In this document: positions 20,268 to 60,216 of the stretch, one piece after another
Layout of the letters: every line of letters starts with the position of its first letter
Position numbering within the stretch: the first letter of the stretch is position 1
Source: Maribellus sp. YY47
GTDB taxonomy: Bacteria; Bacteroidota; Bacteroidia; Bacteroidales; Prolixibacteraceae
DNA: 64,000 nt
Assembly (NCBI RefSeq): GCF_023111095.1
Contig: NZ_JALGYW010000010.1
Location: forward strand, 67,172 to 131,171
Reading direction: 5' to 3'
Made by a program: the position numbers and the translations under genes
Notes under the pieces: generated by a model
Told to the model about the DNA's origin: nothing
The model's input: the letters and a program-made list of their open reading frames with translations, nothing else
Database searches by the model: none

Positions 20268-20978
20268 ATGGCATCCATAAATCGTTTTGCCGACTTGCAT
20301 TGTCATCCGCACAGGCGATCGTTCAATTGGCTGCATAAAAACCGCAGGCCCGAATCAAAACGTAAATACACGCCCTGGTGGATTATTCTGCCCAAAAGAA
20401 AAGCCGAAGAGAAGGGGAAGCGCGCGGCTGCTTATACGCAGTGTGATCTGGCCAAGATCAACAACGGACATCTCAAACTGGCTTTTGTTTCGCTTTATCC
20501 GCTCGGAAAGGGGTGGGTCACCGGACGAAAAGATTCGACCGAAGTGGTGGCAAGGAATCTGGAAAAATACCTGGGAGATAATCTGTTGAATGAAGCTGTG
20601 AGTGCTTTTCTAAACCGTTTTTTACAGTTTATCGGAAATGCCAAAGGAGGCGACCTGGCAGTTCGCGATTTTATTCAGGCTATCTACATGAAAATTCCTT
20701 TGCGAAGAATCAACTTTGTGCAAAGCAGGAAGTACAATTATTTCAATGAGTTAAAAGAGGAACGGGAGTTTCTATTGAAATCAAATGCGACGGAAAGCAG
20801 TACCAAACTATACATCCCGTTTTACAAACGAATTTTTGTCAGCAAAAAGAAGGTACTGAAGAAGGAAGCCGAAAGCCTTTCTGCAACAGGCGCTTATTAC
20901 CTGGCGTTGAACGGGGAAAACGTTGAAGAGATAATCGCACAGGACAAAACGGCATTTGTATTAACCATTGAGAGTTAA
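20268..20978 (+). pseudogene. C-terminally truncated M19-like (membrane dipeptidase family) hydrolase
   Basis: The protein starts MASINRFADLHCHPH, with the DLHCH metal-binding start of a Bacteroidota-specific branch of renal-dipeptidase-like hydrolases. Residues up to about 235 follow the family, but the chain stops at AFVLTIES, where complete members continue with the rest of the metal site (LTIEGAH and beyond); about half of the domain is absent. The stop overlaps the stop of the convergent LacI gene (20975-20978), so the missing part was probably lost in a rearrangement at this junction. Residual function is unlikely. The comparison with full-length relatives is from memory and should be aligned. 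Confidence 0.55.
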
Positions 20979-21991
20979 TTCTTAATGGAAGATTGACGCA
21001 CCACAAGGTCGATCGGGAGAACGATTCGTTTACTGATATTTTCACCTTTGACAAGCAGTTCAAAAAACAGTTCGGCTGCTGCTTTTCCCATTTCAAAGGT
21101 GGGGTGGCTAACCGAAGTTAAGGGCGGATCGACAACGATGGAATGAAATTCATCCGTAAAACCTGCCAAAGAAATATCGTCAGGAATTTTAAATCCCTGC
21201 TTTTTGATTTCGATCATCGCTGCAAATGCAATGGTATCGTTCATCCCGAAGATTGCATCCGGAGGGTTTGGTAGTTGCAGAAGCTGTTGTGTGGCTAACC
21301 TGGCTTCTTCAATACTGAGATTACAATTCACTAAAAGCTGAGGATCGAAATCAATATGACACTCTTCCAAACCTTTTAAGTAACCTATTTTCCGATTCCT
21401 GGAAATATTCAGATGCCCTGGTCCTGAAATGTAAGCGATTCTTCGACAGCCGTTTTCATAGAAATGTCGGGTGATCATTTGCGTAGCTTCTTCTCCGTTA
21501 GCCAAAACTGCGGGAACGCTAAGATCTTCACAAACCCGATCGAAAAACACCAGCGGAATTTCATTTTCAATAAGTTTATGAAAATGCGAAAATTCGTCGG
21601 TTTCCTGGCTCAAACACACAATCAGGCCTTCTACCCTTGAGTTGAGAAGATTATCTACCGATTCAATTTCTTTTTGCATCGACTCGTTGGAAGAAGAAAT
21701 AACGATGAAATACCCGTGTTCTTTGGCTACTTTTTCAATCCCTGAAATAATGGACGAATAGAAATGGGTATTGATATCAGGAACAATCACCCCGATCATT
21801 TTTGTTTGCTGGCGTAATAAACCCATGGCCAGCGGATTGGGAGTGTAATGCCGTTCATTGGCCAGTTGCTGAATTTTTCGGGTTAGCTCCGGACTGATAT
21901 CTGGATGATTTTTCAGAGCACGCGAAACTGTTGAAATGGAAACACCAAGTTCGGTTGCCAGGTCTTTCAAAGATGTATGTCGCTTGCTCAT
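20975..21991 (-). CDS. LacI-family transcriptional regulator
   Basis: The 338-residue protein has an N-terminal LacI helix-turn-helix and hinge helix (SLKDLATELGVSISTVSRAL at 7-26; YTPNPLAMGLLRQ) and a periplasmic-binding-protein-like sugar domain (MIGVIVPDINTHFYSSII to the C-terminal LPIDLVVRQSS). It faces the L-sugar operon at 22168-28905 across a 176-bp gap that holds a 28-bp palindrome, so it very probably represses or controls that operon and itself. The effector is likely a sugar or sugar phosphate of that pathway. Its -7 element TACATTTG lies at 22018-22011. Confidence 0.92.
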   Translation of the reverse strand: MSKRHTSLKDLATELGVSISTVSRALKNHPDISPELTRKIQQLANERHYTPNPLAMGLLRQQTKMIGVIVPDINTHFYSSIISGIEKVAKEHGYFIVISSSNESMQKEIESVDNLLNSRVEGLIVCLSQETDEFSHFHKLIENEIPLVFFDRVCEDLSVPAVLANGEEATQMITRHFYENGCRRIAYISGPGHLNISRNRKIGYLKGLEECHIDFDPQLLVNCNLSIEEARLATQQLLQLPNPPDAIFGMNDTIAFAAMIEIKKQGFKIPDDISLAGFTDEFHSIVVDPPLTSVSHPTFEMGKAAAELFFELLVKGENISKRIVLPIDLVVRQSSIKN

Positions 21992-22052: not shown

Positions 22053-22080
22053 CCGCAAAGCTTTGCGAAAAGCTTTGCGG
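22053..22080. promoter_or_regulatory. LacI-type operator: 28-bp perfect inverted repeat
   Basis: CCGCAAAGCTTT, then GCGA, then AAAGCTTTGCGG: two perfect 12-bp arms with a 4-nt centre. A second perfect palindrome, CGCAAAGCTTTGCG (22054-22067), is nested in it. It lies between the divergent lacI-type gene and the epimerase operon, as expected for a LacI-family operator serving both. Confidence 0.75.
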
Positions 22081-22167: not shown

Positions 22168-23148
22168 ATGAAAAAGAGAGCGTTAGTTGCGGGTGCAGGA
22201 GGTTTTATTGCCGGTCATTTAACCCGAAAATTACTGGAAATGGGCTACGAAGTAAGGGCCGTAGATAAGAAACCGATCAACACGTGGTATCAGGTACACG
22301 ATGAGGCTGATAACCTGGTGCTGGATTTGAATTCAAAGGAAAATTGTTACGCGGCTGTTAATGGTAATTACGAAGTGTTTAACCTGGCAGCCGATATGGG
22401 CGGTATGGGATTTATTGAAAGCCATAAAGCTGATTGCATGTTGAGTGTGCTGATCAATACTCATTTGCTGATGGCAGCGCGCGATTTAGGGGCAACACGG
22501 TTTTTTTATGCATCTTCAGCGTGTGTATACAATGGTGAAAAACAAACCGATCCTAATAATCCCGGACTGAAAGAATCGGATGCTTATCCTGCCCTGGCTG
22601 AAGATGGTTACGGCTGGGAAAAATTGTTTTCGGAAAGGATGTGTCGTCATTTTCGCGAAGATTATGGCATTACAACCCGGGTAGCGCGTTTTCATAATGT
22701 CTACGGGCCTTACGGTACTTTTGATGGCGGACGGGAAAAAGCTCCGGCTGCCATGTGCCGGAAAATAATAGAAGGTGAGTTGTATGGGAAAGACGAGATT
22801 ATTATCTGGGGAGACGGTGAGCAGACCCGCTCGTTTATGTACATCGACGATTGTGTGGAAGGCATTCTGAAGATAATGTACAGCAACATTGAAGAACCGA
22901 TCAATCTGGGAAGTGATGAAATGGTTTCCATCAATCAGTTGGTTGACATAGTGGAAGACATTGCCGGATTCAAGCTTAGAAGAACATACGACCTTGACGC
23001 ACCTAAAGGAGTACGAGGCCGCAACAGCGATAACACTTTAATCAGGGAATACCTCAACTGGGCGCCTTCGTATCCGCTTTCGGAAGGAATGAAAAAGACC
23101 TATGCCTGGATTAAGGAACAAATGCTCTCTGGAAACAAAGTTTACTAA
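22168..23148 (+). CDS. GDP-mannose 3,5-epimerase-like SDR
   Basis: This 326-residue extended SDR has the NAD motif GAGGFIAG (9-16) and resembles plant GDP-mannose 3,5-epimerase along its length (AADMGGMGFIESH, FFYASSACVY, KESDAYP, RFHNVYGPYGTFDGGREKAP, QTRSFMYIDDCVEG, GSDEMVSINQLV, GVRGRNSDN). The plant catalytic residues Cys145, Tyr174, Lys178 and Lys217 correspond to Cys119, Tyr148, Lys152 and Lys191 here, all at a constant offset of 26. The enzyme would make GDP-L-galactose (and GDP-L-gulose) from GDP-mannose. It is the first gene of the LacI-controlled operon, which also holds GDP-mannose synthesis (26070-27149). Confidence 0.85.
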   Translation: MKKRALVAGAGGFIAGHLTRKLLEMGYEVRAVDKKPINTWYQVHDEADNLVLDLNSKENCYAAVNGNYEVFNLAADMGGMGFIESHKADCMLSVLINTHLLMAARDLGATRFFYASSACVYNGEKQTDPNNPGLKESDAYPALAEDGYGWEKLFSERMCRHFREDYGITTRVARFHNVYGPYGTFDGGREKAPAAMCRKIIEGELYGKDEIIIWGDGEQTRSFMYIDDCVEGILKIMYSNIEEPINLGSDEMVSINQLVDIVEDIAGFKLRRTYDLDAPKGVRGRNSDNTLIREYLNWAPSYPLSEGMKKTYAWIKEQMLSGNKVY

Positions 23149-23218
23149 TCTGAAAGGGTAGAAGCGTGAGTTTTGAGAAGCTTCATAACTCATGCTTCAC
23201 TGTTTTAAAAACTGAATT

Positions 23219-24355
23219 ATGAGCGACAAAATAGTAATGGTAAGCGGATGTTACGATCTGCTTCATGCCGGACATATCGCCTTTTTTAAAACTGCTGCGC
23301 AATACGGTAAGCTTCATGTTTACGTTGGTCAGGATGAGAACATTCGTTTATTGAAAGGGAAAGCTCCTTATTTTTCGCAGGAAGAACGAAGGTTCATGGT
23401 GGGGGCAGTAAGGTATGTGGAAAATGCCAGCATTGCGTCAGGTTCGGGAATGCTCGATTTTGAACAGGACATGAAAGATCTGAAACCGGATATTTTTATT
23501 GTGAATCATGATGGTTTTACTGAAGGGAAAAAACAATTGTGCGAACAAAATGGGGTGGAGCTGATCGTACTTGACAGAACTCCCGAAGAAGGTCTACCCA
23601 CACGCTCAAGTTCCGGTTCAAAAAAAGATTTGAAGTTTCCTTACCGGGTTTGTTTAGCCGGTGGCTGGATCGATCAGCCATGGGTTTCTGAAATACACCC
23701 GGGTTCAGTTGTTGTCGCACAAATATGGCCAACAATTGATTTCAACGATCGTTCGGGTATGGCCACAAGTTCCCGTAAAGTCGCTCTTGAGTTATGGGGA
23801 GACCGATACCCCGAAGGTGATCCGGTTCGCAATGCGCAGTTGCTTTTTGGTGCTGAAAATCCCCCGGGATCGGAGTACATTGCCGGTACGCAGGATCATA
23901 TCGGTTTGTTGTTGCCCGGCATTTCGAGGCTTGATTACGACGGGAAATTCTGGCCCAAACACATTGAAAATACAATTGATACTGAAACGTGCAATTGGTT
24001 GTCGTCAGTATTAAATTTTGCGCCACTTCAGCCGCGGCCCGAAGGTTACGATCCGATTCAGAAAAGAAATCTGGATTCAAAAATTATCAGGCGTTTGGGT
24101 GAATCGGGAAAAGCTTGTTACGAAGCGATTTTAAAAAAAGATGTCCACCAACTGGGGGAGTCCATGAAAGCTACGTTTTTGGCCTGGAGCGAAATGCTTC
24201 CTTACACCGTTCCTGGATGGGTAATGCAAGAAATGGAAGCAAATTATTTTCCAAAATATAGTGGAGCCATAACATCCGGGAGTGGCGGCGGTTATGTGGT
24301 TTTTCCATCAGAGGAAGAAATTGAGGGCACCTTTAAAATCAAGGTCAGAGTATAG
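23219..24355 (+). CDS. Bifunctional cytidylyltransferase-fold nucleotidyltransferase / GHMP sugar kinase fusion
   Basis: Residues 1-138 are a cytidylyltransferase-like domain with the start GCYDLLHAGH (10-19, HxGH motif) and TRSSS at 128-132. Residues 141-378 resemble a GHMP kinase of the HddA/fucokinase kind: RVCLAGGWIDQPW near 143, SGMATSS at 179-185, GTQD at 223-226 and the late glycine loop TSGSGGGY. The predicted job is to phosphorylate a free or phosphorylated sugar at C1 and then form an NDP-sugar. The L-fucose enzyme FKP joins the same two activities but in this same general order with an unrelated pyrophosphorylase domain. The neighbours (GDP-mannose 3,5-epimerase, fucose-type permease, mutarotase) suggest an L-galactose-, L-gulose- or L-fucose-like substrate. 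The 240-residue kinase part is short for the family. Confidence 0.72.
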   Translation: MSDKIVMVSGCYDLLHAGHIAFFKTAAQYGKLHVYVGQDENIRLLKGKAPYFSQEERRFMVGAVRYVENASIASGSGMLDFEQDMKDLKPDIFIVNHDGFTEGKKQLCEQNGVELIVLDRTPEEGLPTRSSSGSKKDLKFPYRVCLAGGWIDQPWVSEIHPGSVVVAQIWPTIDFNDRSGMATSSRKVALELWGDRYPEGDPVRNAQLLFGAENPPGSEYIAGTQDHIGLLLPGISRLDYDGKFWPKHIENTIDTETCNWLSSVLNFAPLQPRPEGYDPIQKRNLDSKIIRRLGESGKACYEAILKKDVHQLGESMKATFLAWSEMLPYTVPGWVMQEMEANYFPKYSGAITSGSGGGYVVFPSEEEIEGTFKIKVRV

Positions 24356-24382
24356 AACTTTCTCAAGCAAAAAACCAAAACT

Positions 24383-26038
24383 ATGAACAAACAAATTCTT
24401 TCGATAGCCTTTTTCAGTCTCTTTTTTTCTATTGCTTGTGTTGCTCAGGATATTGAACGCGAACGCCCAAAGGATTGGGAAAGCCTGGTAAAAGGAGGTG
24501 CTTTTATCGACAGGTTTGAACCAATTCCTGTTTTAGGTGAATTAAGATCGGATGTTTGGGGCTGGAAAGCAGTACTGCCGCGCTATGTCGATAATGGAAT
24601 TGAGGATTCGGATTGGTCGTACTGGGGAGGAAATATCATTGTTGGTTCCGACAGTCTTTATCATTTGATTGTTTGTCGCTGGCCGGAAAAAAATGAGAAA
24701 GGCCATATGTACTGGAGTAACTCAGAAGTAGTGCAGGCTGTTTCCAAAAATCGTTTTGGCCCCTACACCGTTGAAGGTGAGGCCATAGGGAAAGGGCATA
24801 ATCCGGAGGTATTTCAATTAAAAGATGGCAGGTATGTTATATATGTAATTGGTGCCTGTTATATCTCTGATTCTTTAAACGGTCCATGGGAAAAGCAGCA
24901 TTTTGAATTTGATCCGCGGGACAGAAAGATTATTGAAGGATTATCAAACCTGACATTTACAAAACGCGAAGATGGATCAGTTTTGATGATTTGCCGCGGC
25001 GGGGGAGTCTGGATTAGTCAGACCGGAATTTCACCTTACTATCAGGTTAGTAACAAGAGTGCCTATCCTGCTTTTGACGGCCGTTATGAAGACCCCGTGG
25101 TTTGGAGAACCGGATTTCAATACCACATGATCGTCAACGATTGGTATGGCCGAATTGCATACTACCTGCGGTCGAAAGACGGAATAAACTGGAAACTTGA
25201 ACCGGGAGAGGCCTACGAACCCGGGATTGCCAATTATACAGATGGTACAAAGGAAGAGTGGTATAAATACGAACGTTTAAAGATTTTACAGGATGAGTGG
25301 GGAAGAGCTATTCAGGCCAATTTTGCGGTAATCGATACTTCGAAGTGGGGCGATCTGGGGAATGACCGTCATAGTTCAAAGAATATTTCAATTCCTTTAG
25401 TGAAAGAGCGTTTTATTTCAGTTCTGAATAAAAAGAAGATTGAGTCTAAAACAGAAACCATCGGATTAAAAATTTCAGCAGAGAACGATTTTGATCCGTT
25501 AACAGAAATAAATGTTGAATCGCTGAGATTTGGAGCTTCCGAGGAAGTAAACTTTGGCGGGGGATGCAAAGCACTTTCTTCGTCAGCCGATGGGAAAGAT
25601 TTGATCGTCAACTTTGACGGGAACGGAAATGGTTTTACCGATGTAGATTTTGCAGGGAAATTGGTTGGTGAAACCAATCAGGGGAAGCTGATAATCGGAT
25701 ATTCAAAGCTACCGGGAGTCGAGTACCTTGAATCCTTTTTATCAGCCCGAAAACCTGTTCTTTCCATGGCAGGCGATCAAATGGAATTAAAGTTTGAGGT
25801 TCAGAACTTTGGGCAGGTTGAGTCGGCGGTTTCTGAATGGGAAATTGCGGTGGGAACAGGTTCTGATACAATCGTTTTAAACGGAAAGATTGGAAGTTTA
25901 AAACCGTACGAGAAAACAGAAATTGTAAAGAAGATTTCAAAAAGTATTCAAAAGGAAAAGGAAATTCCGGCGACGATTACTTTAAAGAATAATCGGCAGA
26001 AATTACCAATTTTTGAGGGGAAAATAAATTTGGATTAG
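24383..26038 (+). CDS. Secreted beta-propeller glycoside hydrolase (GH43/GH117-like)
   Basis: A signal peptide (residues 1-21, ending ACVAQ) starts this 551-residue protein. Residues 40-340 look like a five-bladed propeller glycosidase: DWSYWGGNIIVG, GHNPEVFQLKDGRYVIYVIG, GRYEDPVVW, YHMIVNDWYGRIAYYLRSKDG and QANFAVID, with acidic residues at the blade starts as in GH43/GH117-type enzymes. Residues 350-551 form a beta-sandwich extension. It is placed between the kinase fusion and manC with short gaps, so it probably frees the sugar that the operon imports. GH117 enzymes act on 3,6-anhydro-L-galactose, which fits an L-galactose theme, but the family assignment here is by eye only. Confidence 0.6.
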   Translation: MNKQILSIAFFSLFFSIACVAQDIERERPKDWESLVKGGAFIDRFEPIPVLGELRSDVWGWKAVLPRYVDNGIEDSDWSYWGGNIIVGSDSLYHLIVCRWPEKNEKGHMYWSNSEVVQAVSKNRFGPYTVEGEAIGKGHNPEVFQLKDGRYVIYVIGACYISDSLNGPWEKQHFEFDPRDRKIIEGLSNLTFTKREDGSVLMICRGGGVWISQTGISPYYQVSNKSAYPAFDGRYEDPVVWRTGFQYHMIVNDWYGRIAYYLRSKDGINWKLEPGEAYEPGIANYTDGTKEEWYKYERLKILQDEWGRAIQANFAVIDTSKWGDLGNDRHSSKNISIPLVKERFISVLNKKKIESKTETIGLKISAENDFDPLTEINVESLRFGASEEVNFGGGCKALSSSADGKDLIVNFDGNGNGFTDVDFAGKLVGETNQGKLIIGYSKLPGVEYLESFLSARKPVLSMAGDQMELKFEVQNFGQVESAVSEWEIAVGTGSDTIVLNGKIGSLKPYEKTEIVKKISKSIQKEKEIPATITLKNNRQKLPIFEGKINLD

Positions 26039-26069
26039 TATTTTCACCGGTCCATAGAAATCTTTACCA

Positions 26070-27149
26070 ATGAATATGCTATATACCCTTATCATGGCTG
26101 GCGGTTCAGGAACCAGATTCTGGCCCAGAAGCAAAAACGCACGACCCAAACAATACCTGAATATTTTTGGGGACAATTCGCTGTTGGAGGAAACCATTGA
26201 CCGTTTTGCGACCTTCACCGAAAAAGAAAACATTTACATCGTTTCGAGTGCCACACAGTCAGAAGTGCTGGAGAAGCAGGCATCCATGCTTCCCAAGGCA
26301 AACCTGATTTATGAGCCTGTTGGAAGAAACACTTTACCCTGTATCGGATTGGCGGCGATGTATGCCGAAAAAGAAAATCCGGATGGGATTATGGTGGTTT
26401 CTCCGTCAGATCACCTGATTCAGAACAACGAACTTTTTAAAGACACGGTGCTGGCCGCCGTAAAAATTGCCGATGAACGCAATGGTATTGTCACTATTGG
26501 AATTACGCCTTCGTATCCGGCAACCGGGTATGGCTATGTTCAGACTGCCGAGGATATTACGGGGAAAGAAAAGATCCGCCAGTTTAAAGTGGCTCGTTTC
26601 GTGGAGAAACCCAACGAAGAAGTAGCTTCGGAATACCTGAAACAAGGAGGCTTTTTCTGGAACAGCGGCTTATTTGTGTTCAAAGTTTCAGTGTTTTTGG
26701 AAGCAGTTGAAAAATTCGCTCCGGCTCTGTACGCCGATTTGCGGAAAATTCAGGCTGATTTAGGAAAACCGGAATATCCTCAAACACTCGATACGATTTA
26801 TCGCGCTGTAGAAAGCATTTCGGTGGATTACGGAATTATGGAACATGCTGAAAACATATACCTGGTGGAGGGAAATTTCGACTGGAACGACCTCGGGAGC
26901 TGGGAGTCGGTTTACCTGACCGATAAAAAGGATGAGAATGGAAATGCGGGCGCCGGTGAAGCTATAATGGTGGATACCCAAAACTCGTATGTTTATTCCG
27001 ACGAAGGACTGGTTGCAGTGGTCGGGCTCGAAGATGTGATTGTGGTGAAAGACGGCAACACAACCCTGGTGTGCAGGCGCGATAAAGCCGAAGATGTGAA
27101 AAAGATTGTGGAACAACTTAAGAAAGATAACAAAAACCAATACCTGTAA
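26070..27149 (+). CDS. manC: Mannose-1-phosphate guanylyltransferase
   Basis: The 359-residue protein has the sugar-nucleotidyltransferase start LIMAGGSGTRFWPRS (7-21), PKQY, VVSPSDHLI, the FVEKP motif, and NSGLFVF, all typical of ManC-type GDP-mannose pyrophosphorylases. It lacks the C-terminal isomerase domain of longer bifunctional ManC. The product GDP-mannose is the substrate of the epimerase encoded at 22168-23148, which supports a short de novo route to GDP-L-galactose within this operon. It could also serve general GDP-mannose or GDP-fucose supply. Confidence 0.92.
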   Translation: MNMLYTLIMAGGSGTRFWPRSKNARPKQYLNIFGDNSLLEETIDRFATFTEKENIYIVSSATQSEVLEKQASMLPKANLIYEPVGRNTLPCIGLAAMYAEKENPDGIMVVSPSDHLIQNNELFKDTVLAAVKIADERNGIVTIGITPSYPATGYGYVQTAEDITGKEKIRQFKVARFVEKPNEEVASEYLKQGGFFWNSGLFVFKVSVFLEAVEKFAPALYADLRKIQADLGKPEYPQTLDTIYRAVESISVDYGIMEHAENIYLVEGNFDWNDLGSWESVYLTDKKDENGNAGAGEAIMVDTQNSYVYSDEGLVAVVGLEDVIVVKDGNTTLVCRRDKAEDVKKIVEQLKKDNKNQYL

Positions 27150-27170
27150 AATTTCAACCAATAAAACTTC

Positions 27171-27205
27171 TCAGGTGCTGTTGTGAACTAAAAGATTGCA
27201 CCTGA
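27171..27205 (+). promoter_or_regulatory. Intercistronic hairpin between manC and the permease gene
   Basis: TCAGGTGC (27171-27178) and GCACCTGA (27198-27205) form an 8-bp stem with a 19-nt loop. No T-run follows, so it looks more like an RNA-stability or processing element than a terminator. It could set different mRNA levels on its two sides. Confidence 0.4.
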
Positions 27206-27228
27206 AATCAAATTTAAACTAAAACCAA

Positions 27229-28548
27229 ATGAAAGATACTAAGAAAATTGTCGTGGATAGGAAGATTCTTGTCCCGTTTATTCTTATTACAAGCCTGTTT
27301 GCTTTGTGGGGCTTTGCCAACGATATTACCAACCCGATGGTGGCAGCTTTTAAAACTGTAATGGAAATATCGAATGCAAAAGCTGCCCTCGTTCAATTTG
27401 CTTTTTATGGCGGATATGCAACCATGGCCATTCCTGCCGCGCTTATTATTAAACGGTATTCGTATAAACTTGGAATTATTATAGGATTGGGATTATACGC
27501 AATTGGTGCCTTACTCTTTTATCCGGCCGCCCGTTTCGAAATTTTCGGCTTCTTTCTGGTTTCGTTGTACATTCTCACTTTTGGGTTGGCTTTTCTTGAA
27601 ACAACCGCCAATCCTTATATTTTGTCGATGGGCTCGCCCGAAACTGCAACCCGTCGTTTGAACCTGGCGCAATCTTTTAATCCGATGGGCTCATTAATGG
27701 GAATGATCATAGCCTCCCAAGTGGTGTTGCCAAGTTTGCGGTCTGATGCGAGAGATGATACTGGTAACCTGGTGTTCGATAGCCTGAGTGCGGCTGAGAA
27801 AGCTGTCATCCGTACCGAGGACCTGGCTGCAATTCGCAATCCTTATGTTATTTTAGGCTTTGTGGTTATTTTAATGTTGGTGATTATTGCTTTTTCAAAA
27901 ATGCCGGTACGCCAAAGTGCAGACCATGAGATTCACGCCTGGGATTCATTTAAGCGTTTAATAAAAAACAAAATTTATCGCGAAGGAGTTATTGCGCAGG
28001 TTTTTTATGTGGGAACTCAAATCATGTGCTGGACTTTTATCATTCAATACGCCGAAAACCTGGGACTAACAAAAGCAGAAGCACAACGATACAATATTGT
28101 GGCAATGGTTTTATTTCTTTCCAGCCGTTTTATCAGTACTGCTCTGATGAAATATTTAAATGCTCGTTTTATGCTGATGTTATTTGCCATTGGAGGCATG
28201 TTAACGATAAGCGGAGTAATTTTGATTCAGGGAATGCCCGGCTTGTATTTACTGGTGGCAACCTCTGCTTTTATGTCGCTTATGTTCCCGACAATTTACG
28301 GAATTGCTCTCGAAGATATTGGAGATGATGCAACGCTGGGAGCGGCCGGTTTGGTGATGGCCATTGTAGGTGGCGCTTTGTTGCCCATTCTTCAGGCAAA
28401 TATTATCGATATAGGCGGAAATGCTTATGATGATTTTAAGTTGTTTGGCTTCATCCCGGAAGTTAACTTCTCATTTATTTTGCCTTTTATTTGTTTTGCT
28501 GTAATTGCCAATTATGGCCGCCGGACTTATAAGGCACTAAAATCTTAA
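27229..28548 (+). CDS. Sugar:H+ symporter, FucP (L-fucose permease) family
   Basis: This 439-residue protein has twelve predicted helices and family motifs such as FALWGFANDITNPMVAAFK (19-37), GYATMAIPAALIIKRYSYKLGI and the intramembrane acid in FLETTANPYI. FucP imports L-fucose and also takes L-galactose, so it fits an operon that handles an L-galacto-configured sugar. No fucose isomerase, kinase or aldolase is encoded nearby. Other members carry glucose or galactose, so the substrate is inferred from context. Confidence 0.85.
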   Translation: MKDTKKIVVDRKILVPFILITSLFALWGFANDITNPMVAAFKTVMEISNAKAALVQFAFYGGYATMAIPAALIIKRYSYKLGIIIGLGLYAIGALLFYPAARFEIFGFFLVSLYILTFGLAFLETTANPYILSMGSPETATRRLNLAQSFNPMGSLMGMIIASQVVLPSLRSDARDDTGNLVFDSLSAAEKAVIRTEDLAAIRNPYVILGFVVILMLVIIAFSKMPVRQSADHEIHAWDSFKRLIKNKIYREGVIAQVFYVGTQIMCWTFIIQYAENLGLTKAEAQRYNIVAMVLFLSSRFISTALMKYLNARFMLMLFAIGGMLTISGVILIQGMPGLYLLVATSAFMSLMFPTIYGIALEDIGDDATLGAAGLVMAIVGGALLPILQANIIDIGGNAYDDFKLFGFIPEVNFSFILPFICFAVIANYGRRTYKALKS

Positions 28549-28557
28549 AAAATAGAA

Positions 28558-28905
28558 ATGGAATACAAAAGATATTGCAAAACCTTGAAACTGGTTGACG
28601 ATCCGGAGTTGATCAGTGCCTATAAAAAGGTACATGCTCCCGGAGCAGTGTGGCCCGAAATAACCCAGGGAATGAGGGAAGTTGGAATCACCGACATGGA
28701 AATCTATTTACTGGGAGAAACGCTTTTTATGATCATGGAAACGGTCGCTGATTTTGATCACGAAACAGCAATGGCCGAATTGGCTTCCAAGCCCCGGCAA
28801 TCGGAGTGGGAAGCTTATGTTTCCCAATTTCAAAAGACGAGTGAAAGTGCCAGTGCCAATGAAAAATGGCAGCTAATGGAACGTATTTATAAAATGGATC
28901 AATAG
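28558..28905 (+). CDS. L-rhamnose/L-fucose mutarotase family protein (RhaM fold)
   Basis: The 115-residue protein shows the DUF718/RhaM pattern: YKKVHAPGAVWPEI with His26 at the place of the catalytic His22 of RhaM, the central MEIYLLGETLFMIMET strand pair, and a C-terminal EKWQLMERIY. These proteins interconvert sugar anomers. It is the last gene of the operon, 9 bp after the permease, and would give the anomer that the kinase needs. It differs clearly from the RhaM at 48062-48376. Confidence 0.8.
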   Translation: MEYKRYCKTLKLVDDPELISAYKKVHAPGAVWPEITQGMREVGITDMEIYLLGETLFMIMETVADFDHETAMAELASKPRQSEWEAYVSQFQKTSESASANEKWQLMERIYKMDQ

Positions 28906-28930: not shown

Positions 28931-28958
28931 AAAAAGGGGGTGACAACACCCCCTTTTT
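28931..28958. terminator. Bidirectional rho-independent terminator
   Basis: AAAAAGGGGGTG - ACAA - CACCCCCTTTTT is a perfect 12-bp stem with A and T tracts on the two sides. It lies between the convergent mutarotase and FadL-like genes and can end transcription from both. Confidence 0.9.
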
Positions 28959-53364: not shown

Positions 53365-56300
53365 ATGAAAAAAAAATGTTGTATAACGGTTTCTGAGTTA
53401 TACGAAACAATGAATTCAAAAGCACTGAGGATTATGAGGATTGTTTTGTTTTTACTTTTCGTAAGTATAACACAAGCTTTTGCTTTTGACAGTTATGCTC
53501 AAAGTGCTCGATTGAGCTTAAGCTTGAAGGATGAGGCGATCGTAACTATTCTTAACAAAATAGAAGATTTGTCTGACTATTATTTTATGTACGATGCAAC
53601 CGTAGTGAATGTTAATCAAAAAAGAAGTATTAATTGTGAAAACAAAGCAATTGCAAGTGTATTAGACGAGTTGTTTCACGAATCAGGAATCATCTATAAA
53701 ATTGATGATCATGTAATCGTTCTAACTGAGACTCGCACAAATGCAGGAAATAACGTTAATCAGTACGGGCAGCAAGTAAAAAAAGTATCAGGAATAGTAT
53801 CAGACGTTGACGGGCTTCCTTTGCCTGGTGTAACAATCACAGTTGTGGGGACTACGCGAGGCGTGATAACAGACAACGATGGGTCATATACTATCGATGC
53901 TAAATCATCCGATAAATTAGTTTTTTCATTTATTGGGATGGAAAGCCAGGAGATAGAAGTCGGCAATCAGGTTACCATCAATGTTAAAATGCAAGATAAG
54001 ACCGAAGAACTGGATGATGTAACCGTAGTTGCTTTTGGTAAACAACGAAAGGAAAGTGTAATTGCATCAATTGAAACTGTTAAGGCATCGGATCTGAAAA
54101 TTTCTTCATCGAATCTTACCACCGCTTTTGCAGGGAAAATCCCGGGAATTATTTCATATCAGTCAACAGGCGAACCAGGAGCCGATAATGCCCAGTTTTT
54201 TGTGCGTGGTGTTACTACCTTCGGATACAAAACAGATCCTCTTATTCTTATCGATGGATTTGAGGCAAGTACTGATGACTTAGCTCGCATTCAACCGGAT
54301 GACATCGAAAGTTTCTCGGTATTAAAAGATGCATCGGCCACGGTACTTTATGGTGCACGTGGAGCAAACGGGATCATTGTTGTAAGTACAAAAAGCGGAT
54401 CAGAAGGGAAAGTTAAGATCTCTGCTCGTGTTGACTTTAATGTTGCAACACCTACCAAAATGCTTGATCTGCTTGATGGAGTGGAATATATGCGCCTTTA
54501 CAATCAGGCCCTGGTTTCTCGTTACGACGATATGACACATGAAGTAGATGAAATTCCTACTCCACCATGGTATAGTGAAGAGAAAATCAGGGCGACAGAA
54601 CGTGGGGATAATCCGATGATTTATCCTAATGTGGATTGGTATGATATGTTGTTTAAGAATGGTACTACGAACAAGAAGGCCAATATAAATCTATCTGGAG
54701 GAGGAAAATCGGCGCATTATTATGTGGCAGGAGGCATTGACAACGAAACAGGATTGTTGAAAATCGACAACCAGGATAATCTTAACAATTTCAATAGTAA
54801 TATTAACATTGTTCGCGTTCATTTACGTAGTAATGTGAGTTTTAACTTAGGTCCAACAACCAAATTAGACACACGAATTTACGGTCGTTTTGAAAAATAT
54901 AATGGACCTTATACCAGTGCCAGTTCCATCTTTAACCAGGTAATGGATAGCAACCCTGTTGATTTCCCTGCGGTTTGGGAGCCTGATGAGCGTAATCAAT
55001 CGACTCGATGGACTCTTTTTGGTAATGCCGATCCAATGAAAACGAACCCTTTTGCAGAGATGGTTCGTGGTTACCGAGAGAACAACCAAAGTACTATTTC
55101 AGTGCAGGCGACTTTAATGCAAGACCTGGATTTTATTACCCCTGATTTAAAATTGCAGGTGAAAGCCTCAGCCAATACCTGGAATTACAATTCGGGAGCC
55201 AGAAGATATTCTCCGGTTTATTATGCATTGGAACAATATGACCCTTTTACTGAAGATTATGCTCTGTATAATCTGACCCCAAATAACATTCCCTACTTAG
55301 GTGATACGGAAGCGAGTAGGGACGGGAATACCCATTTTTATTTCGAAGGCAGATTGAACTGGGATAAAACCTGGGACAAGCATACTTTATCGTTAATGAC
55401 CGTTGGAATTAAAGAAGAAAAAATTCTGACCGACGGACAGGGAGGTACCATTTATTATACTTTGCCAGAACGAAACCTGGGAAATTCAGGACGTTTTTCC
55501 TACAATTACGATAAACGTTATTTTCTTGAATATGCCTATGGATATAACGGATCGGAAAAATTCTATGGCAAAAAGCGCTTTGGTTTTTTCCCATCATACG
55601 GGGTAAGCTGGATTCCATCGAACGAAGCATTTTGGGGAGCAGGCTTGCAGAATATTGTTAGTTTGTTGAAAGTGAAGTTTACTTACGGTAAAGTAGGTAA
55701 CGATGCCATTGCAAATCGTGAAGGCCGCTTCTTTTATTTATCGCGACTCGAAAGTGGTGGAGGTGAATATCAGTGGGGAAGAATATTTAGCCAATCCTAT
55801 TCCGGTTTTCAGTTTGCGCGTTATGCCAATCCCGATATTTCGTGGGAGGTGGCTGACAAATATAATCTCGGATTAGAATTGGGATTATTTAAAGATGAAG
55901 CATTGAAACTTCAGGTTGATTTATTCGAAGACCATCGTAATAATATTTACATGGTACGTGAGAATTTTCCTGAAACTGCAGGTTTCCAGACTTCTATACA
56001 TGGGAATGTTGGAAAAGTATTGTCAAAAGGTATCGATGGCTCATTAGACTTTAAATATTCTTTTGGTTCCCATTTTTGGCTAATGTCGAGAGCAAACTTT
56101 ACTTATGCTACCAATAAATACCTGGAGAAAGACGAGAAAAATTACAGAGATGAATATTTAAGTGCAATTGGGCATCCGATTAACCAAACCTGGGGTTTGA
56201 TAGCCGAAAGACTTTTTGTTGACCAGGCAGAAATAGACAATTCTCCGCGGCAGGAATTTGGGTCGTACATGAGAGGAGATATAAAATATCTGGATGTGAA

Positions 56301-56826
56301 CAACGATGGTGTCATAAACAACAATGACCGTGTTCCTATGGGCTATCCTACGGTTCCGGAGATTCAGTATGGTTTCGGTATGTCAGCGGGGTATAAAAAT
56401 TTCGACTTTTCATTCTTCTTTCAGGGGAATGCCAGAGTTTCATTTTATATAAATCCAGGGGGTATTGCTCCTTTTGTTAACCGTCGGAACGCACCGGAGA
56501 TTATCGCTCGTGATTCATGGAGCGAAACCAATCCCGATGTACATGCTTTTTGGCCACGATTGGCTACCTATCAAGTGAATAATAATATTCAACAGTCATC
56601 CTGGTGGTTAAGAGAGGGGAGCTTCATACGTCTTAAAACAGTGGAATTAGGGTATAACCTGCCAGTTGCCAAACGGTTGGGGATGGAGAGCCTTCGCCTT
56701 TACTTAAGCGGAGAAAATATATTTACCATTAGTGCCTTTAAACTTTGGGATCCTGAGATGGGTGGAAATGGATTAGCTTATCCGATTAACCGACGGTTTA
56801 ATGTCGGATTACAATTAAACTTCTAA
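53365..56826 (+). CDS. SusC-like TonB-dependent outer-membrane transporter with STN signalling domain
   Basis: This 1153-residue protein has an N-terminal signal near residues 20-45, an STN domain (about 48-125; LSLSLKDEAIVTILNKIEDLSDYYFMYD), a CarboxypepD_reg-like domain (about 135-215; VSGIVSDVDGLPLPGVTITVVGTTRGVITDNDGSYTI), a TonB plug (about 220-345; GVTTFGYKTDPLILIDGFEAS, SVLKDASATVLYGARGANGIIVVSTKSG) and a barrel to the terminal VGLQLNF. It would pull oligosaccharides into the periplasm with energy from TonB and signal to FecR through the STN domain. The SusD partner follows by 15 bp. Confidence 0.97.
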   Translation: MKKKCCITVSELYETMNSKALRIMRIVLFLLFVSITQAFAFDSYAQSARLSLSLKDEAIVTILNKIEDLSDYYFMYDATVVNVNQKRSINCENKAIASVLDELFHESGIIYKIDDHVIVLTETRTNAGNNVNQYGQQVKKVSGIVSDVDGLPLPGVTITVVGTTRGVITDNDGSYTIDAKSSDKLVFSFIGMESQEIEVGNQVTINVKMQDKTEELDDVTVVAFGKQRKESVIASIETVKASDLKISSSNLTTAFAGKIPGIISYQSTGEPGADNAQFFVRGVTTFGYKTDPLILIDGFEASTDDLARIQPDDIESFSVLKDASATVLYGARGANGIIVVSTKSGSEGKVKISARVDFNVATPTKMLDLLDGVEYMRLYNQALVSRYDDMTHEVDEIPTPPWYSEEKIRATERGDNPMIYPNVDWYDMLFKNGTTNKKANINLSGGGKSAHYYVAGGIDNETGLLKIDNQDNLNNFNSNINIVRVHLRSNVSFNLGPTTKLDTRIYGRFEKYNGPYTSASSIFNQVMDSNPVDFPAVWEPDERNQSTRWTLFGNADPMKTNPFAEMVRGYRENNQSTISVQATLMQDLDFITPDLKLQVKASANTWNYNSGARRYSPVYYALEQYDPFTEDYALYNLTPNNIPYLGDTEASRDGNTHFYFEGRLNWDKTWDKHTLSLMTVGIKEEKILTDGQGGTIYYTLPERNLGNSGRFSYNYDKRYFLEYAYGYNGSEKFYGKKRFGFFPSYGVSWIPSNEAFWGAGLQNIVSLLKVKFTYGKVGNDAIANREGRFFYLSRLESGGGEYQWGRIFSQSYSGFQFARYANPDISWEVADKYNLGLELGLFKDEALKLQVDLFEDHRNNIYMVRENFPETAGFQTSIHGNVGKVLSKGIDGSLDFKYSFGSHFWLMSRANFTYATNKYLEKDEKNYRDEYLSAIGHPINQTWGLIAERLFVDQAEIDNSPRQEFGSYMRGDIKYLDVNNDGVINNNDRVPMGYPTVPEIQYGFGMSAGYKNFDFSFFFQGNARVSFYINPGGIAPFVNRRNAPEIIARDSWSETNPDVHAFWPRLATYQVNNNIQQSSWWLREGSFIRLKTVELGYNLPVAKRLGMESLRLYLSGENIFTISAFKLWDPEMGGNGLAYPINRRFNVGLQLNF

Positions 56827-56841
56827 CCAAAATAAACAAAA

Positions 56842-58836
56842 ATGATGTACGCATTTATTAAAAATATTAGAAGATACGTAATTACTGCAATCGTTTTACT
56901 TTTCTTCTCTTCGTGTAGCGATTTCCTGGATATTGTGCCAGACAATACGATTACACTGGAAGACTATTTTGCAAATAAGGAAAAAGCTTACAATGCTTTA
57001 AGTAATGTTTATGCAGGTATTCCCAATAATCATTTAATTCACAATACAGAGTGGCTGTTGGGAGACGACTGGCTCGGGCAACGTGACGCCACAAAAGCAC
57101 AGAGTGGCTTAGTCGGAACACGTATTATGGAAGGAAACCAAAATACTACAAGTGTGTTACTTGGCTATTGGCAAGGTTCTAATTATGCAACAGACTTGTA
57201 TGAGGTGATTCGATCGGCCAACACTTTTCTGGAATATATTCATTTAGTAAAAGATCTTTCGGATGATGAGAGGGCTCAATGGATTGCGCAGGTAAAGTTT
57301 CTGAAAGCTTATTACCATTTTATCTTGATTCAGCATTACGGGCCAATTACTTTGATAAAAGAGAACGTGCAGCCCAATGCTGGTTCTGAAGAATTATTTG
57401 TCAACCGCTCAAAAATCGATGATTGCTTTGATTATGTTCTTGAATTAATCGATGAAGCTATTCCCAACCTGGATGACGAAACGATGGAAGATGAGCTGGG
57501 GATGATCAATCAATCTATTGCGAAAGCTATTAAGGCACGTGTCTTACTTTTTAGAGCAAGTCCTTTGTTCAATGGCAATAAAGATTTATATGGCGACTTT
57601 TATGATCATGATGGAGAACCATACTTTCCGATGGATGAGGAGGGATCACAAGTATGGACACAAAAATGGAAAGACGCATTGGTTGCTGTAAATGAAGCAA
57701 TAAATAATTGTGAAACAGAAGGATTCGGATTATACGAATATGAAGAACAGCCATATAAGTTTGATATGGAAGATTGGAAAAACAACACTGAGGCGATGAA
57801 ACGTTTATACTCGCTTAGGCTGTTGATTGTTGATCCATGGAATAAAGAATGTATCTGGGGGCGCACCTACCGAACCGGGCAGAGTGGAACCATTCAGGAT
57901 GCAAGTAACATTCGGTTACCCCGCACTTTTACAAATGGAGTACAGGAAACTACTGGTAATTCGTGGAACTGGGCCGGAGCAACTTTTCAGATGGTAAATA
58001 GGTATTATTCTAAAAATGGTCTGCCCATCGAAGTCGATAAGACTTTTGATAAAAACAATATGTATCGCCTTGTATCTACTCCATCACAAGATTCTTCGGA
58101 ATATGAACCACTTCGTGGAATTCTGCAGCCCGATTTTATGACAGTGAGTATGTATTTAAACCGCGAACCTCGTTTTTATGCCAATTTAGGAATAACAGGA
58201 GGCTATTGGCGCGGACATCAATACCGGATTGATACAGAAATGTATGGCGGTACCCCCGGTGGATATGATCCTAGCGTTAGTGCGACAGATTTTATGTGGA
58301 CAGGCGTTGGTGTTCAGAAATTTGTACATCCCGAGTCAAAATCAGGAAGTTGGATTCGTCAGATACATTTCCCGTATCCGATTATCCGTATGGCCGATCT
58401 TTACCTGATGAAGGCAGAAATACTTAACGAGCTGAACGGCCCGGGGCAGGAAGTTTATGATGAAATAAACAAGATCCGCCAGCGCGCAGGGATTCCCAAT
58501 GTTGAGGACGTTTGGTCTAATCCTAACTTGTGTAATAGTTTGTATCTAAATTGGCATCAGGATAAAGATGGGTTAAGGGAGATTATATTAAGAGAGCGTA
58601 GTATTGAATTTGCCTTTGAAGGAAGCCGTTATTGGGATGTAGTTCGCTACAAAAAAGCAACCGCTGAATTTAATACCCCGGTTACGGGATGGACAGGAAA
58701 TGCTTATGGTCAGCAGAATTTTTTCCGTTTAGAGGTCAAGCAGCGCCGTCAATTTCTTAACCGAAATTATTTATGGCCACTTTCTTTGAATGAAATGAAT
58801 ACCAATGCTAACCTTATTCAAAATCCCGGATGGTAA
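56842..58836 (+). CDS. SusD-like surface glycan-binding lipoprotein
   Basis: The 664-residue protein has a lipobox FSSC (about residue 25) and the SusD fold: an N-terminal TPR-like part (EKAYNALSNVYAGIPNN; ARWIAQVKFLKAYYHF-like stretch), and the C-terminal MADLYLMKAEILNELNG and LREIILRERSIEFAFEGSRYWDVVRYKKA signatures. It caps the SusC channel and binds the glycan at the cell surface. It follows susC directly and is followed by three more lipoprotein genes of the locus. Confidence 0.96.
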   Translation: MMYAFIKNIRRYVITAIVLLFFSSCSDFLDIVPDNTITLEDYFANKEKAYNALSNVYAGIPNNHLIHNTEWLLGDDWLGQRDATKAQSGLVGTRIMEGNQNTTSVLLGYWQGSNYATDLYEVIRSANTFLEYIHLVKDLSDDERAQWIAQVKFLKAYYHFILIQHYGPITLIKENVQPNAGSEELFVNRSKIDDCFDYVLELIDEAIPNLDDETMEDELGMINQSIAKAIKARVLLFRASPLFNGNKDLYGDFYDHDGEPYFPMDEEGSQVWTQKWKDALVAVNEAINNCETEGFGLYEYEEQPYKFDMEDWKNNTEAMKRLYSLRLLIVDPWNKECIWGRTYRTGQSGTIQDASNIRLPRTFTNGVQETTGNSWNWAGATFQMVNRYYSKNGLPIEVDKTFDKNNMYRLVSTPSQDSSEYEPLRGILQPDFMTVSMYLNREPRFYANLGITGGYWRGHQYRIDTEMYGGTPGGYDPSVSATDFMWTGVGVQKFVHPESKSGSWIRQIHFPYPIIRMADLYLMKAEILNELNGPGQEVYDEINKIRQRAGIPNVEDVWSNPNLCNSLYLNWHQDKDGLREIILRERSIEFAFEGSRYWDVVRYKKATAEFNTPVTGWTGNAYGQQNFFRLEVKQRRQFLNRNYLWPLSLNEMNTNANLIQNPGW

Positions 58837-58861
58837 TCGTTAAAAGAGTTAAAAAGCATAA

Positions 58862-60196
58862 ATGAATCATCTCATGCAAAAAACAATAAAAATATACATA
58901 GGATTCTTGGTAGCTCTTCTAATAAGTTTCGCTGCCTGTAAAGAAAATGAACGTTTCGAACTTGGATATAGTGACGATACTCCTCCATCTGCCCCGGAGT
59001 TTCTGAGGTATAAACCGACTTACGGAGGGGCACGAATTTACTATAATAAGCCAGTAGATAAAGATCTTCTTTCTATTGATGCTACTTATTTGAGTTCAAA
59101 AGGGAAAGAGATGTGGTTTTCTGTATCTTATTTTGAGGACTATATAGATGTTTACGGATTTGATACAGAAAAACCGTATACAATTCAATTGTTTGCAGTA
59201 GACCGGGCAGGTAATCAATCTGAGAAGATACCAGTTACAGTTGAACCTTTAGAGCCGGCAGTTCAGCAAGTGGCCAGTACAATATATTGCATTGCGGGAT
59301 TTAGTTCTTTTTATATAAACTGGGAAAATGGGTTAATGCAGAGTATGAATATTTTCCTTGATTACTCTTATAAAAACGCAGAGAATCAATTGGTGGAAAA
59401 TCATGTAATCTATACCTCTCGTGAAGCCGAAGAGCGCAGATTTATCCGCGATCCCGGACTTTCAGAGTCAACACCGGTTAATGTAACAGTCCGGGTAGAG
59501 GATGAATTTGGGAATACAAGCAATACCCTGGAAATTGGAACCTTAGCTTTGCTGGGCGATGAAAAGATCCCCAAAGATGCGTGGCAAATCCCCGGGACGA
59601 ATGATTCTACAATAGTCAACAGAAACGGTGAAGTCGTTAATACTGGAGTTCCAATGGGATTTTTCAACGGACTGGAAGGGCGTGATTATATGGTAATTGA
59701 CGATATAATAAGCGACGGTACTTTTGTCAATTTTACCCATACCTACGGATGGGGACGAACCGGCAATTCAAGAGACGGTAATATGCCCTGGAATTACATA
59801 ATAGATTTAGGCGACTATTACGAGTTGAGCCGTATTGTTACACACCAAAGGTACAGGCACACCGGTGCTACCGAGTACAGTGGGCGCGAAGACTATTACA
59901 GGGCAGAGAATGTTGGAATTTATGCAATGTGGCGTTGGGATGAAGACACACAACAGTGGGACTCTATTACTACGAATAAAATCACTTTCCCGGTCGATTT
60001 GCCTGATCGTCAATACAGAATATTGGGTCGGCAGGGCGACATGGCCTATATGTATCCCGAGGCTCCAAAATTCACCAAACCAACACGCTGGTTCCGCTAC
60101 GAAGCTATTGCTGGTTTTAATGATAACTATGAGTCGCTCAATGCAAACTGTTTATCTGAAATCACTCTTTACGGAAGAAAGGCTGAAGGTTATTAA
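58862..60196 (+). CDS. Surface lipoprotein, DUF4959/DUF5000-like
   Basis: The 444-residue protein has a lipobox SFAAC and a fibronectin-like DUF4959 domain (about 38-125; PPSAPEFLRYKPTYGGARIYYNKPVDKDLL, YTIQLFAVDRAGNQSEKIPVTV), a middle DUF5126-like Ig domain, and a C-terminal galactose-binding-like (F5/8 or DUF5000) domain (about 285-440; WNYIIDLGDYYELSRIVTHQRYRHTGATEY). Such proteins stand in the SusE/SusF position and probably bind glycan outside the cell. Binding target unknown. Confidence 0.8.
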   Translation: MNHLMQKTIKIYIGFLVALLISFAACKENERFELGYSDDTPPSAPEFLRYKPTYGGARIYYNKPVDKDLLSIDATYLSSKGKEMWFSVSYFEDYIDVYGFDTEKPYTIQLFAVDRAGNQSEKIPVTVEPLEPAVQQVASTIYCIAGFSSFYINWENGLMQSMNIFLDYSYKNAENQLVENHVIYTSREAEERRFIRDPGLSESTPVNVTVRVEDEFGNTSNTLEIGTLALLGDEKIPKDAWQIPGTNDSTIVNRNGEVVNTGVPMGFFNGLEGRDYMVIDDIISDGTFVNFTHTYGWGRTGNSRDGNMPWNYIIDLGDYYELSRIVTHQRYRHTGATEYSGREDYYRAENVGIYAMWRWDEDTQQWDSITTNKITFPVDLPDRQYRILGRQGDMAYMYPEAPKFTKPTRWFRYEAIAGFNDNYESLNANCLSEITLYGRKAEGY

Positions 60197-60216
60197 CTTA
60201 CTTATTAAGACTAAAA

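Follow-up and report, generated by a model that had tools for sequence, protein, structure and literature searches.

The Leloir/Isselbacher route for D-galactose combines a mutarotase, an anomeric GHMP kinase, nucleotidyl transfer, an NAD-dependent nucleotide-sugar epimerase and a pyrophosphorylase that regenerates nucleoside triphosphate. L-Galactose is a sugar of pectin, mucilage and red-algal galactan. Its catabolism, in the literature covered here, goes through dehydrogenases (PMC12632266). GDP-mannose 3,5-epimerase (GME; GDP, guanosine diphosphate) has so far been known from vitamin C, cell wall, lipopolysaccharide (LPS) and antibiotic synthesis, and in print the bacterial enzyme is tied to the last two. 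Its published equilibrium of about 80:15:5 favours GDP-mannose, and it also yields GDP-L-gulose. The fused enzyme Fkp takes L-galactose and makes GDP-L-galactose, with an affinity about 100-fold weaker than for L-fucose (PMC11982464). We analysed a 64,000-nucleotide stretch of the Maribellus sp. YY47 genome (contig NZ_JALGYW010000010.1, positions 67,172 to 131,171; hereafter the window), which at 22168-28905 holds an operon joining GME to a cytidylyltransferase-fold/GHMP sugar kinase fusion, here called FUS. At a probability of roughly 0.6, we consider this to be a catabolic operon under repressor control, serving the use of L-galactose set free from glycans of plants or algae. GME most likely runs in reverse, with L-galactose serving as food rather than as cell-surface decoration. 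No nucleotide-sugar route for L-galactose breakdown was found among the results listed from the literature covered, which mostly excludes subscription papers and preprints; within the same coverage nothing similar to the operon was found either, in line with an earlier sequence-only reading of this DNA.

Operon composition and predicted enzymes

Six co-directional genes lie on the + strand with intergenic gaps of 70, 27, 31, 79 and 9 bases, and a LacI-family repressor gene is encoded divergently upstream (20975..21991, - strand; PF00356 and Peripla_BP). All six open reading frames of the sequence-only reading were found where it had placed them, in one direction and closely spaced. At the family level, import, mutarotase, kinase, nucleotidyltransferase, epimerase and pyrophosphorylase functions are all encoded together, and the earlier claim that GME, ManC and a kinase/nucleotidyltransferase share one operon was supported.

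The first gene (22168..23148, +; Epimerase family) encodes a member of the GME family, for which interconversion of GDP-mannose and GDP-L-galactose is predicted. Its five best PDB rows were all GME, with E values from 3.7e-97 (2c59) to 2.6e-96, and the next non-GME row stood at 1.9e-28. By eye, about half of the residues are common to this protein and A. thaliana GME. A review lists S143, C145, Y174, K178, N203, K217, R243 and R306 as GME residues, and notes that GDP-fucose synthase has a His base and a Lys where GME has a Lys base and an Arg (PMC8787198). The window counterparts are S117, C119, Y148, K152, N177, K191, R221 and R283, matching the published catalytic and binding residues: the protein carries the Ser/Tyr/Lys triad (S117/Y148/K152), the Cys-Lys acid/base pair (C119/K191) and the Arg (R283) expected of GME. 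Among 53 relatives sharing at least 70% identity, each of the eight was conserved in 52 or 53; gaps account for the remainder.

The second gene (23219..24355, +) encodes FUS, the proposed L-galactose kinase/L-galactose-1-phosphate guanylyltransferase. Its N-terminal part is CTP_transf_like (PF01467); the C-terminal part has no Pfam match and was assigned to the GHMP kinases by profile and fold, its closest solved relative by sequence being the fucokinase half of Fkp. A tree of FUS proteins (101 rows, 93 different) separated a GME-linked clade from a sister clade at 100/99 support. The counterparts of the residues with which Fkp contacts its sugar (R592, W599, D601, G759, Q761 and D762) were kept in all 57 GME-linked and all 41 sister rows of an alignment from which L085, L099 and L120 had been dropped and in which 8 of the 41 sister rows are duplicates. 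The FUS equivalents are R143, W150 and D152 by alignment, and G223, Q225 and D226 by GxQD spacing only; Fkp T602 corresponds to Q153. These Fkp-type sugar-site residues make a heptose or glycerol phosphate an unlikely substrate. Two residues past the motif Arg, at position 145, 55 of the 57 GME-linked rows have Cys and all 41 sister rows have Asp; Fkp, like the sister clade, has Asp there (D594). Position 145 is a candidate for a substrate switch between the two clades.

The fourth gene (26070..27149, +) encodes a ManC-type mannose-1-phosphate guanylyltransferase with no isomerase domain (PF00483, PF22640); its TIGR01479 match (1e-97, 327.9 bits) falls under the cut-off of 372.95. It is followed by genes for a FucP-type L-sugar:H+ symporter (27229..28548, +; TIGR00885, 576.7 bits against a cut-off of 280.4) and a RhaM/FucM-type L-sugar mutarotase (28558..28905, +; PF05336, 3.3e-29; best PDB match L-fucose mutarotase 7byu, 5.2e-6). 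Pfam and NCBIfam scans of the operon proteins detected no FucI, FucK or FucA, no GDP-L-galactose phosphorylase family and, in a search that covered the operon only, no L-galactose dehydrogenase or L-galactonate enzyme family. Neither a glycosyltransferase nor a polymer export gene was found next to GME in the operon by open reading frame list and Pfam scan.

A putative operator, the nested palindrome CGCAAAGCTTTGCGAAAAGCTTTGCG, lies between the lacI and GME genes (22054..22079, no strand). It is the only such site in the window (mean of 0.00 in 100 shuffles), and the longer core CGCAAASCTTTGCG has a single exact match in the 5.04 Mb genome, at this operator, which suggests that the repressor acts locally. 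The shorter core GCAAASCWTTGC was chosen after seeing these promoters, and overlapping tandem sites were counted singly; it gave 38 matches across the 1.0 Mb covered by 64 related loci, versus 0.6 expected under a first-order Markov model. All 38 matches, which fall in 23 of the 64 loci, were within 500 bp upstream of GME (32), FucP (4) or a 1075-aa GH2 gene (2). LacI orthologues more than 50% identical occur in 18 of the 64 loci, and the operator was present in 18/18 of these versus 5/46 of the others. Control by one repressor, as the sequence-only reading had it, was thus borne out, with a conserved operator predicted for it.

The third gene (24383..26038, +) encodes a 551-aa beta-propeller glycosidase, judged by eye to be secreted, with no Pfam match, a propeller fold apparently of GH117/GH62/GH43 type and a plain Foldseek list with low TM scores; a PDB sequence search with it gave no match. 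Of the 64 related loci, L029 alone carried a gene labelled as its homologue, and the gene is not part of the conserved set. The protein belongs to a large propeller family of 3345 homologues with an apparently GH117-like fold and no Pfam or PDB sequence match.

A terminator-like hairpin with a 12-pair stem (28931..28958, no strand) lies between the operon and a convergent outer-membrane-protein gene; the hairpin scan was not clearly above its background, with 9 found versus a shuffle mean of 7.6. A 236-aa open reading frame at 20268-20978, with no Pfam or NCBIfam match, overlaps at its own end with the end of the lacI gene by 4 bases. Further along the window, 53365-62112 holds a separate glycan-uptake locus, a SusC/SusD pair with DUF4959/DUF5126/DUF5000 and DUF4998 proteins.

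Distribution and neighbourhoods of FUS and GME

FUS relatives numbered 3749 matches; among the best 120, the nearest were 82-86% identical, and the named ones were Prolixibacteraceae, mainly Draconibacterium. The GME-linked clade comprises 57 rows plus the long-branched L085, and holds the window and every row labelled with GME. Its rows with GME come from Bacteroidota, Ignavibacteriota, Calditrichota and Planctomycetota, mostly as metagenome-assembled genomes and exclusively so for the last three phyla; one Verrucomicrobiota row lacks GME. The sister clade of 43 rows extends to Chloroflexota and Armatimonadota. Among 395 sampled genomes of the phylum, GME was found in 23 at E <=1e-60 and adjoined FUS in 3 of these (the genome of the window, G176 and G078), and full-length FUS relatives were found in 4. 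Among 198 genomes of the order, GME was found in 7 and adjoined FUS in 2 (the window's and the same-genus genome G567); FUS relatives of at least 39% identity were present in 22, with only those of the window's genome and G567 in the GME-linked clade. G567 carries one FUS from each clade, so the two clades need not share a task.

To compare neighbourhoods, 80 of 85 relatives were kept, and the 62 loci with FUS at least 55% identical were treated as the close clade. The 24 sister loci combined 14 of the same relatives with 10 added regions and include L085, which the tree places beside the other clade. The GME-only set covered 9 of the 25 genomes with GME and without FUS, mostly the most similar. 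The loci are related and their counts not independent, while the Fisher p-values below treat them as independent. FUS had GME at a distance of two genes or fewer in 54 of the 62 close-clade loci, and the gene order is therefore not chance; in 3 of the 8 remaining loci FUS starts less than 400 bases from a contig end. Within seven genes, across the 64 related loci, there were 56 with GME (directly upstream in 54), 31 with a LacI-family gene, 30 with a GH29-type gene, 25 with ManC, 19 with RhaM and 13 with FucP, and a longer FucP-like protein was seen in 3 more; the GH29 identity rests on Pfam for representative proteins. The gene order noted earlier is conserved in other Bacteroidota and beyond, above all as GME-FUS; of the expected co-occurrence, the GME part was strongly seen, and ManC, RhaM and FucP accompanied FUS much less often.

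The close clade differed markedly from the GME-only set. GH29 or GH95 genes stood within five genes in 41/62 close-clade, 5/24 sister and 0/9 GME-only loci (close clade versus GME-only, p = 1.9e-4; versus sister, p = 2.3e-4). Glycosyltransferases, counted as GT4/GT2 with models seeded from E. coli WcaI, WcaL and WcaE that may miss families, stood within five genes in 1/62, 3/24 and 8/9 loci, respectively (p = 7.5e-9 and 0.064). Fcl counts obtained in this way also take in GME and were left out of the comparison. Pfam scans gave a similar picture, their tables showing the top 25 families. Alpha-L-fucosidase was found in 21 of 112 close-clade neighbours, and the 25 top-ranked of 110 families included no glycosyltransferase; these 112 come from the first half of 231 candidate genes in 29 loci, without 15 long ones. 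Glycosyltransferase group 1 was found in 12 of 63 GME-only neighbours. Among sister neighbours (95 of 162 candidates), GDP_Man_Dehyd was found in 11, an upper bound for Gmd, since PF16363 also matches GME-like proteins.

Several loci showed further features. In L159, L160 and L161 (G146, G344 and G147), GME is 66-69% identical to that of the window, FUS is absent and a glycosyltransferase lies within five genes; these GME genes are closely related to the proposed catabolic GME but stand in a different context. L073 has two 499-aa genes for fasciclin-domain proteins between FUS and ManC, and L038 has one 499-aa gene likewise placed. The 1075-aa gene of L073 was considered as SusC and rejected, as it is GH2.

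Of the 24 sister loci, 4 have FUS close to Gmd and Fcl (L169:7454-10889, L168:9389-12605, L173 and L176), and in L172 it lies near FucU and FucP. In at least part of the clade, salvage of L-fucose thus seems to be coupled with de novo synthesis of GDP-L-fucose, and the FUS near Gmd/Fcl probably salvages L-fucose independently of Fkp, in Bacteroidota as well as in other phyla. The earlier idea of combined de novo and salvage supply fits this clade better than the window operon.

The proposed catabolic route and its alternatives

In the proposed route, secreted glycosidases would free L-galactose, FucP would import it and RhaM/FucM would interconvert its anomers. With ATP, the GHMP domain of FUS would form L-galactose-1-phosphate, which the cytidylyltransferase-fold domain would convert to GDP-L-galactose. 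GME in reverse would give GDP-D-mannose, and ManC in reverse, with pyrophosphate, mannose-1-phosphate and GTP. Phosphomannomutase and phosphomannose isomerase encoded elsewhere would then lead to fructose-6-phosphate and glycolysis. The genome contains two proteins assigned to PGM/PMM at the family level and one type I phosphomannose isomerase catalytic domain (PF20511, 1 match), so these steps are plausibly covered; PF01238, which marks only the C-terminal domain of the isomerase, had 0 genome matches. A second ManC-like gene, 35% identical, is also present. Gene families, gene order, operator, active-site residues and neighbourhood contrast were observed, and from these we infer substrate, nucleotide and direction, on balance favouring the route as drawn. 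It explains every gene; a biosynthetic role would leave the glycosidases and the missing glycosyltransferases unexplained.

A number of points weigh against catabolism. Five loci with room upstream have no GME (L021, L051, L065, L074 and L096), and ManC and FucP lie within seven genes in only 25 and 13 of the 64 loci. Neither GH29 nor GH95 is found in 21/62 loci, some on short contigs, or in the window operon, and GH29 and GH95 enzymes act mostly on L-fucose. In glycosyltransferases the close clade and the sister set do not differ significantly (p = 0.064). L085, counted as a sister locus and having glycosyltransferases, has a long branch that joins the tree next to the GME-linked clade, and the GME-only comparison covers 9 of 25 genomes. 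The FUS nucleotidyl domain is nearest to CTP enzymes; its GTP use is suggested because GME adjoins FUS, and Gmd/Fcl adjoin part of the sister clade. The same genes could also run forward, and the reverse ManC step would require pyrophosphate.

The sequence-only reading had ManC and GME building, and FucP, RhaM and FUS scavenging, GDP-L-galactose for cell-surface glycans under one repressor. Its activated L-galactose-like sugar was supported; the purpose assigned to it was not, and we regard it as doubtful. The forward reactions are textbook ones, other bacterial GME genes lie in glycan clusters, and sister FUS stands beside Gmd/Fcl in 4 of 24 loci, L168 having consecutive genes for GME, FUS, Gmd and Fcl. 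LacI control and import are, however, typical of catabolism, and the operator stands before permease and glycosidase genes too. The GME equilibrium opposes the forward direction, and the neighbourhoods of the close clade are rich in GH29/GH95 (41/62 versus 0/9) and nearly free of glycosyltransferases (1/62 versus 8/9). Akkermansia Amuc_1591, of like design to FUS, has been proposed to feed L-fucose into LPS (PMC13313206), which counts in favour of the surface-glycan purpose.

Handling of L-fucose, with FUS making GDP-L-fucose and GME or another step diverting it, seems improbable. FucP, the L-fucose-type mutarotase, GH29 and the Fkp-like kinase residues would all fit, but FUS in the GME-linked clade has Cys at position 145, in contrast to the Asp of Fkp and the sister clade, and GME acting on GDP-L-fucose would be expected to give GDP-D-rhamnose, no usual catabolite. 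The genome also encodes FucI elsewhere, above the TIGR01089 cut-off and beside a GntR-type regulator gene; the absence of a fucose isomerase noted earlier thus holds for the locus and not for the genome. An E. coli-seeded search near the 62 related loci found FucI in 3, FucK in 0 and FucA in 0. FucI lies near the L-galactose-type operon in L036 (1224-3014; Pfam-confirmed), L039 and L043, as though the two L-sugars were handled in parallel, and the two systems therefore coexist. Another sugar such as L-gulose or D-arabinose is very unlikely: GME makes GDP-L-gulose too and Fkp accepts D-arabinose (PMC11982464), but L-gulose differs at C3, contacted in Fkp by a conserved Asp, Fkp is reported to be restricted to the C2-C5 configuration (PMC11982464), and D-arabinose, a pentose, cannot become GDP-mannose.

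Taken more broadly, the catabolic operon leads us to lean narrowly towards a third L-galactose route, by way of a nucleotide sugar, in Bacteroidota, Ignavibacteriota, Calditrichota and Planctomycetota: GME in reverse would be the L-to-D gateway. A new family of fused kinase/guanylyltransferases would feed it, and the sister clade of that family would salvage L-fucose while lacking an Fkp-type domain. If so, bacterial GME genes would gain a second, degradative role, an L-hexose would be turned into a D-sugar of glycolysis at a net cost of one ATP, and the unnamed FUS family would receive a substrate class. Annotators could then tell degradative from biosynthetic GME by neighbourhood.

Comparison with known systems

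A protein search meant to tie FUS to Amuc_1591 returned no Akkermansia name among the best 120 of 3537 relatives. By description, Amuc_1591 has the same two-domain design as FUS and is a proposed fucose-nucleotidyltransferase on genetic grounds; unlike FUS, it is proposed for LPS and predicted in one transcription unit with murJ (PMC13313206). Fkp of Bacteroides fragilis likewise joins a kinase to a nucleotidyltransferase acting on a sugar of L-fuco configuration, and the GHMP parts are homologous. The nucleotidyl half of FUS, however, is of another family (PF01467), and FUS as a whole has only 378 residues; the fucose_pyrophosphorylase domain of Fkp, PF07959, is absent from FUS and had 0 matches in the genome.

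The Lgu pathway of Luteolibacter LG18 also catabolises L-galactose, but by a dehydrogenase route to D-tagaturonate, and "GDP" is absent from the main text of the paper (PMC12632266). The Smirnoff-Wheeler pathway, by which plants convert mannose through L-galactose to ascorbate, has GDP-mannose pyrophosphorylase and GME in common with the operon; the operon is proposed to run backwards, and neither the GDP-L-galactose phosphorylase nor the L-galactose dehydrogenase family is represented in it. In overall logic and in the kinds of enzyme employed, the proposed route follows the Leloir/Isselbacher route, from which it would differ in its substrate, L-galactose, in a double 3,5-epimerisation, in a probable GDP carrier, in the fused kinase/transferase and in FucP-type import.

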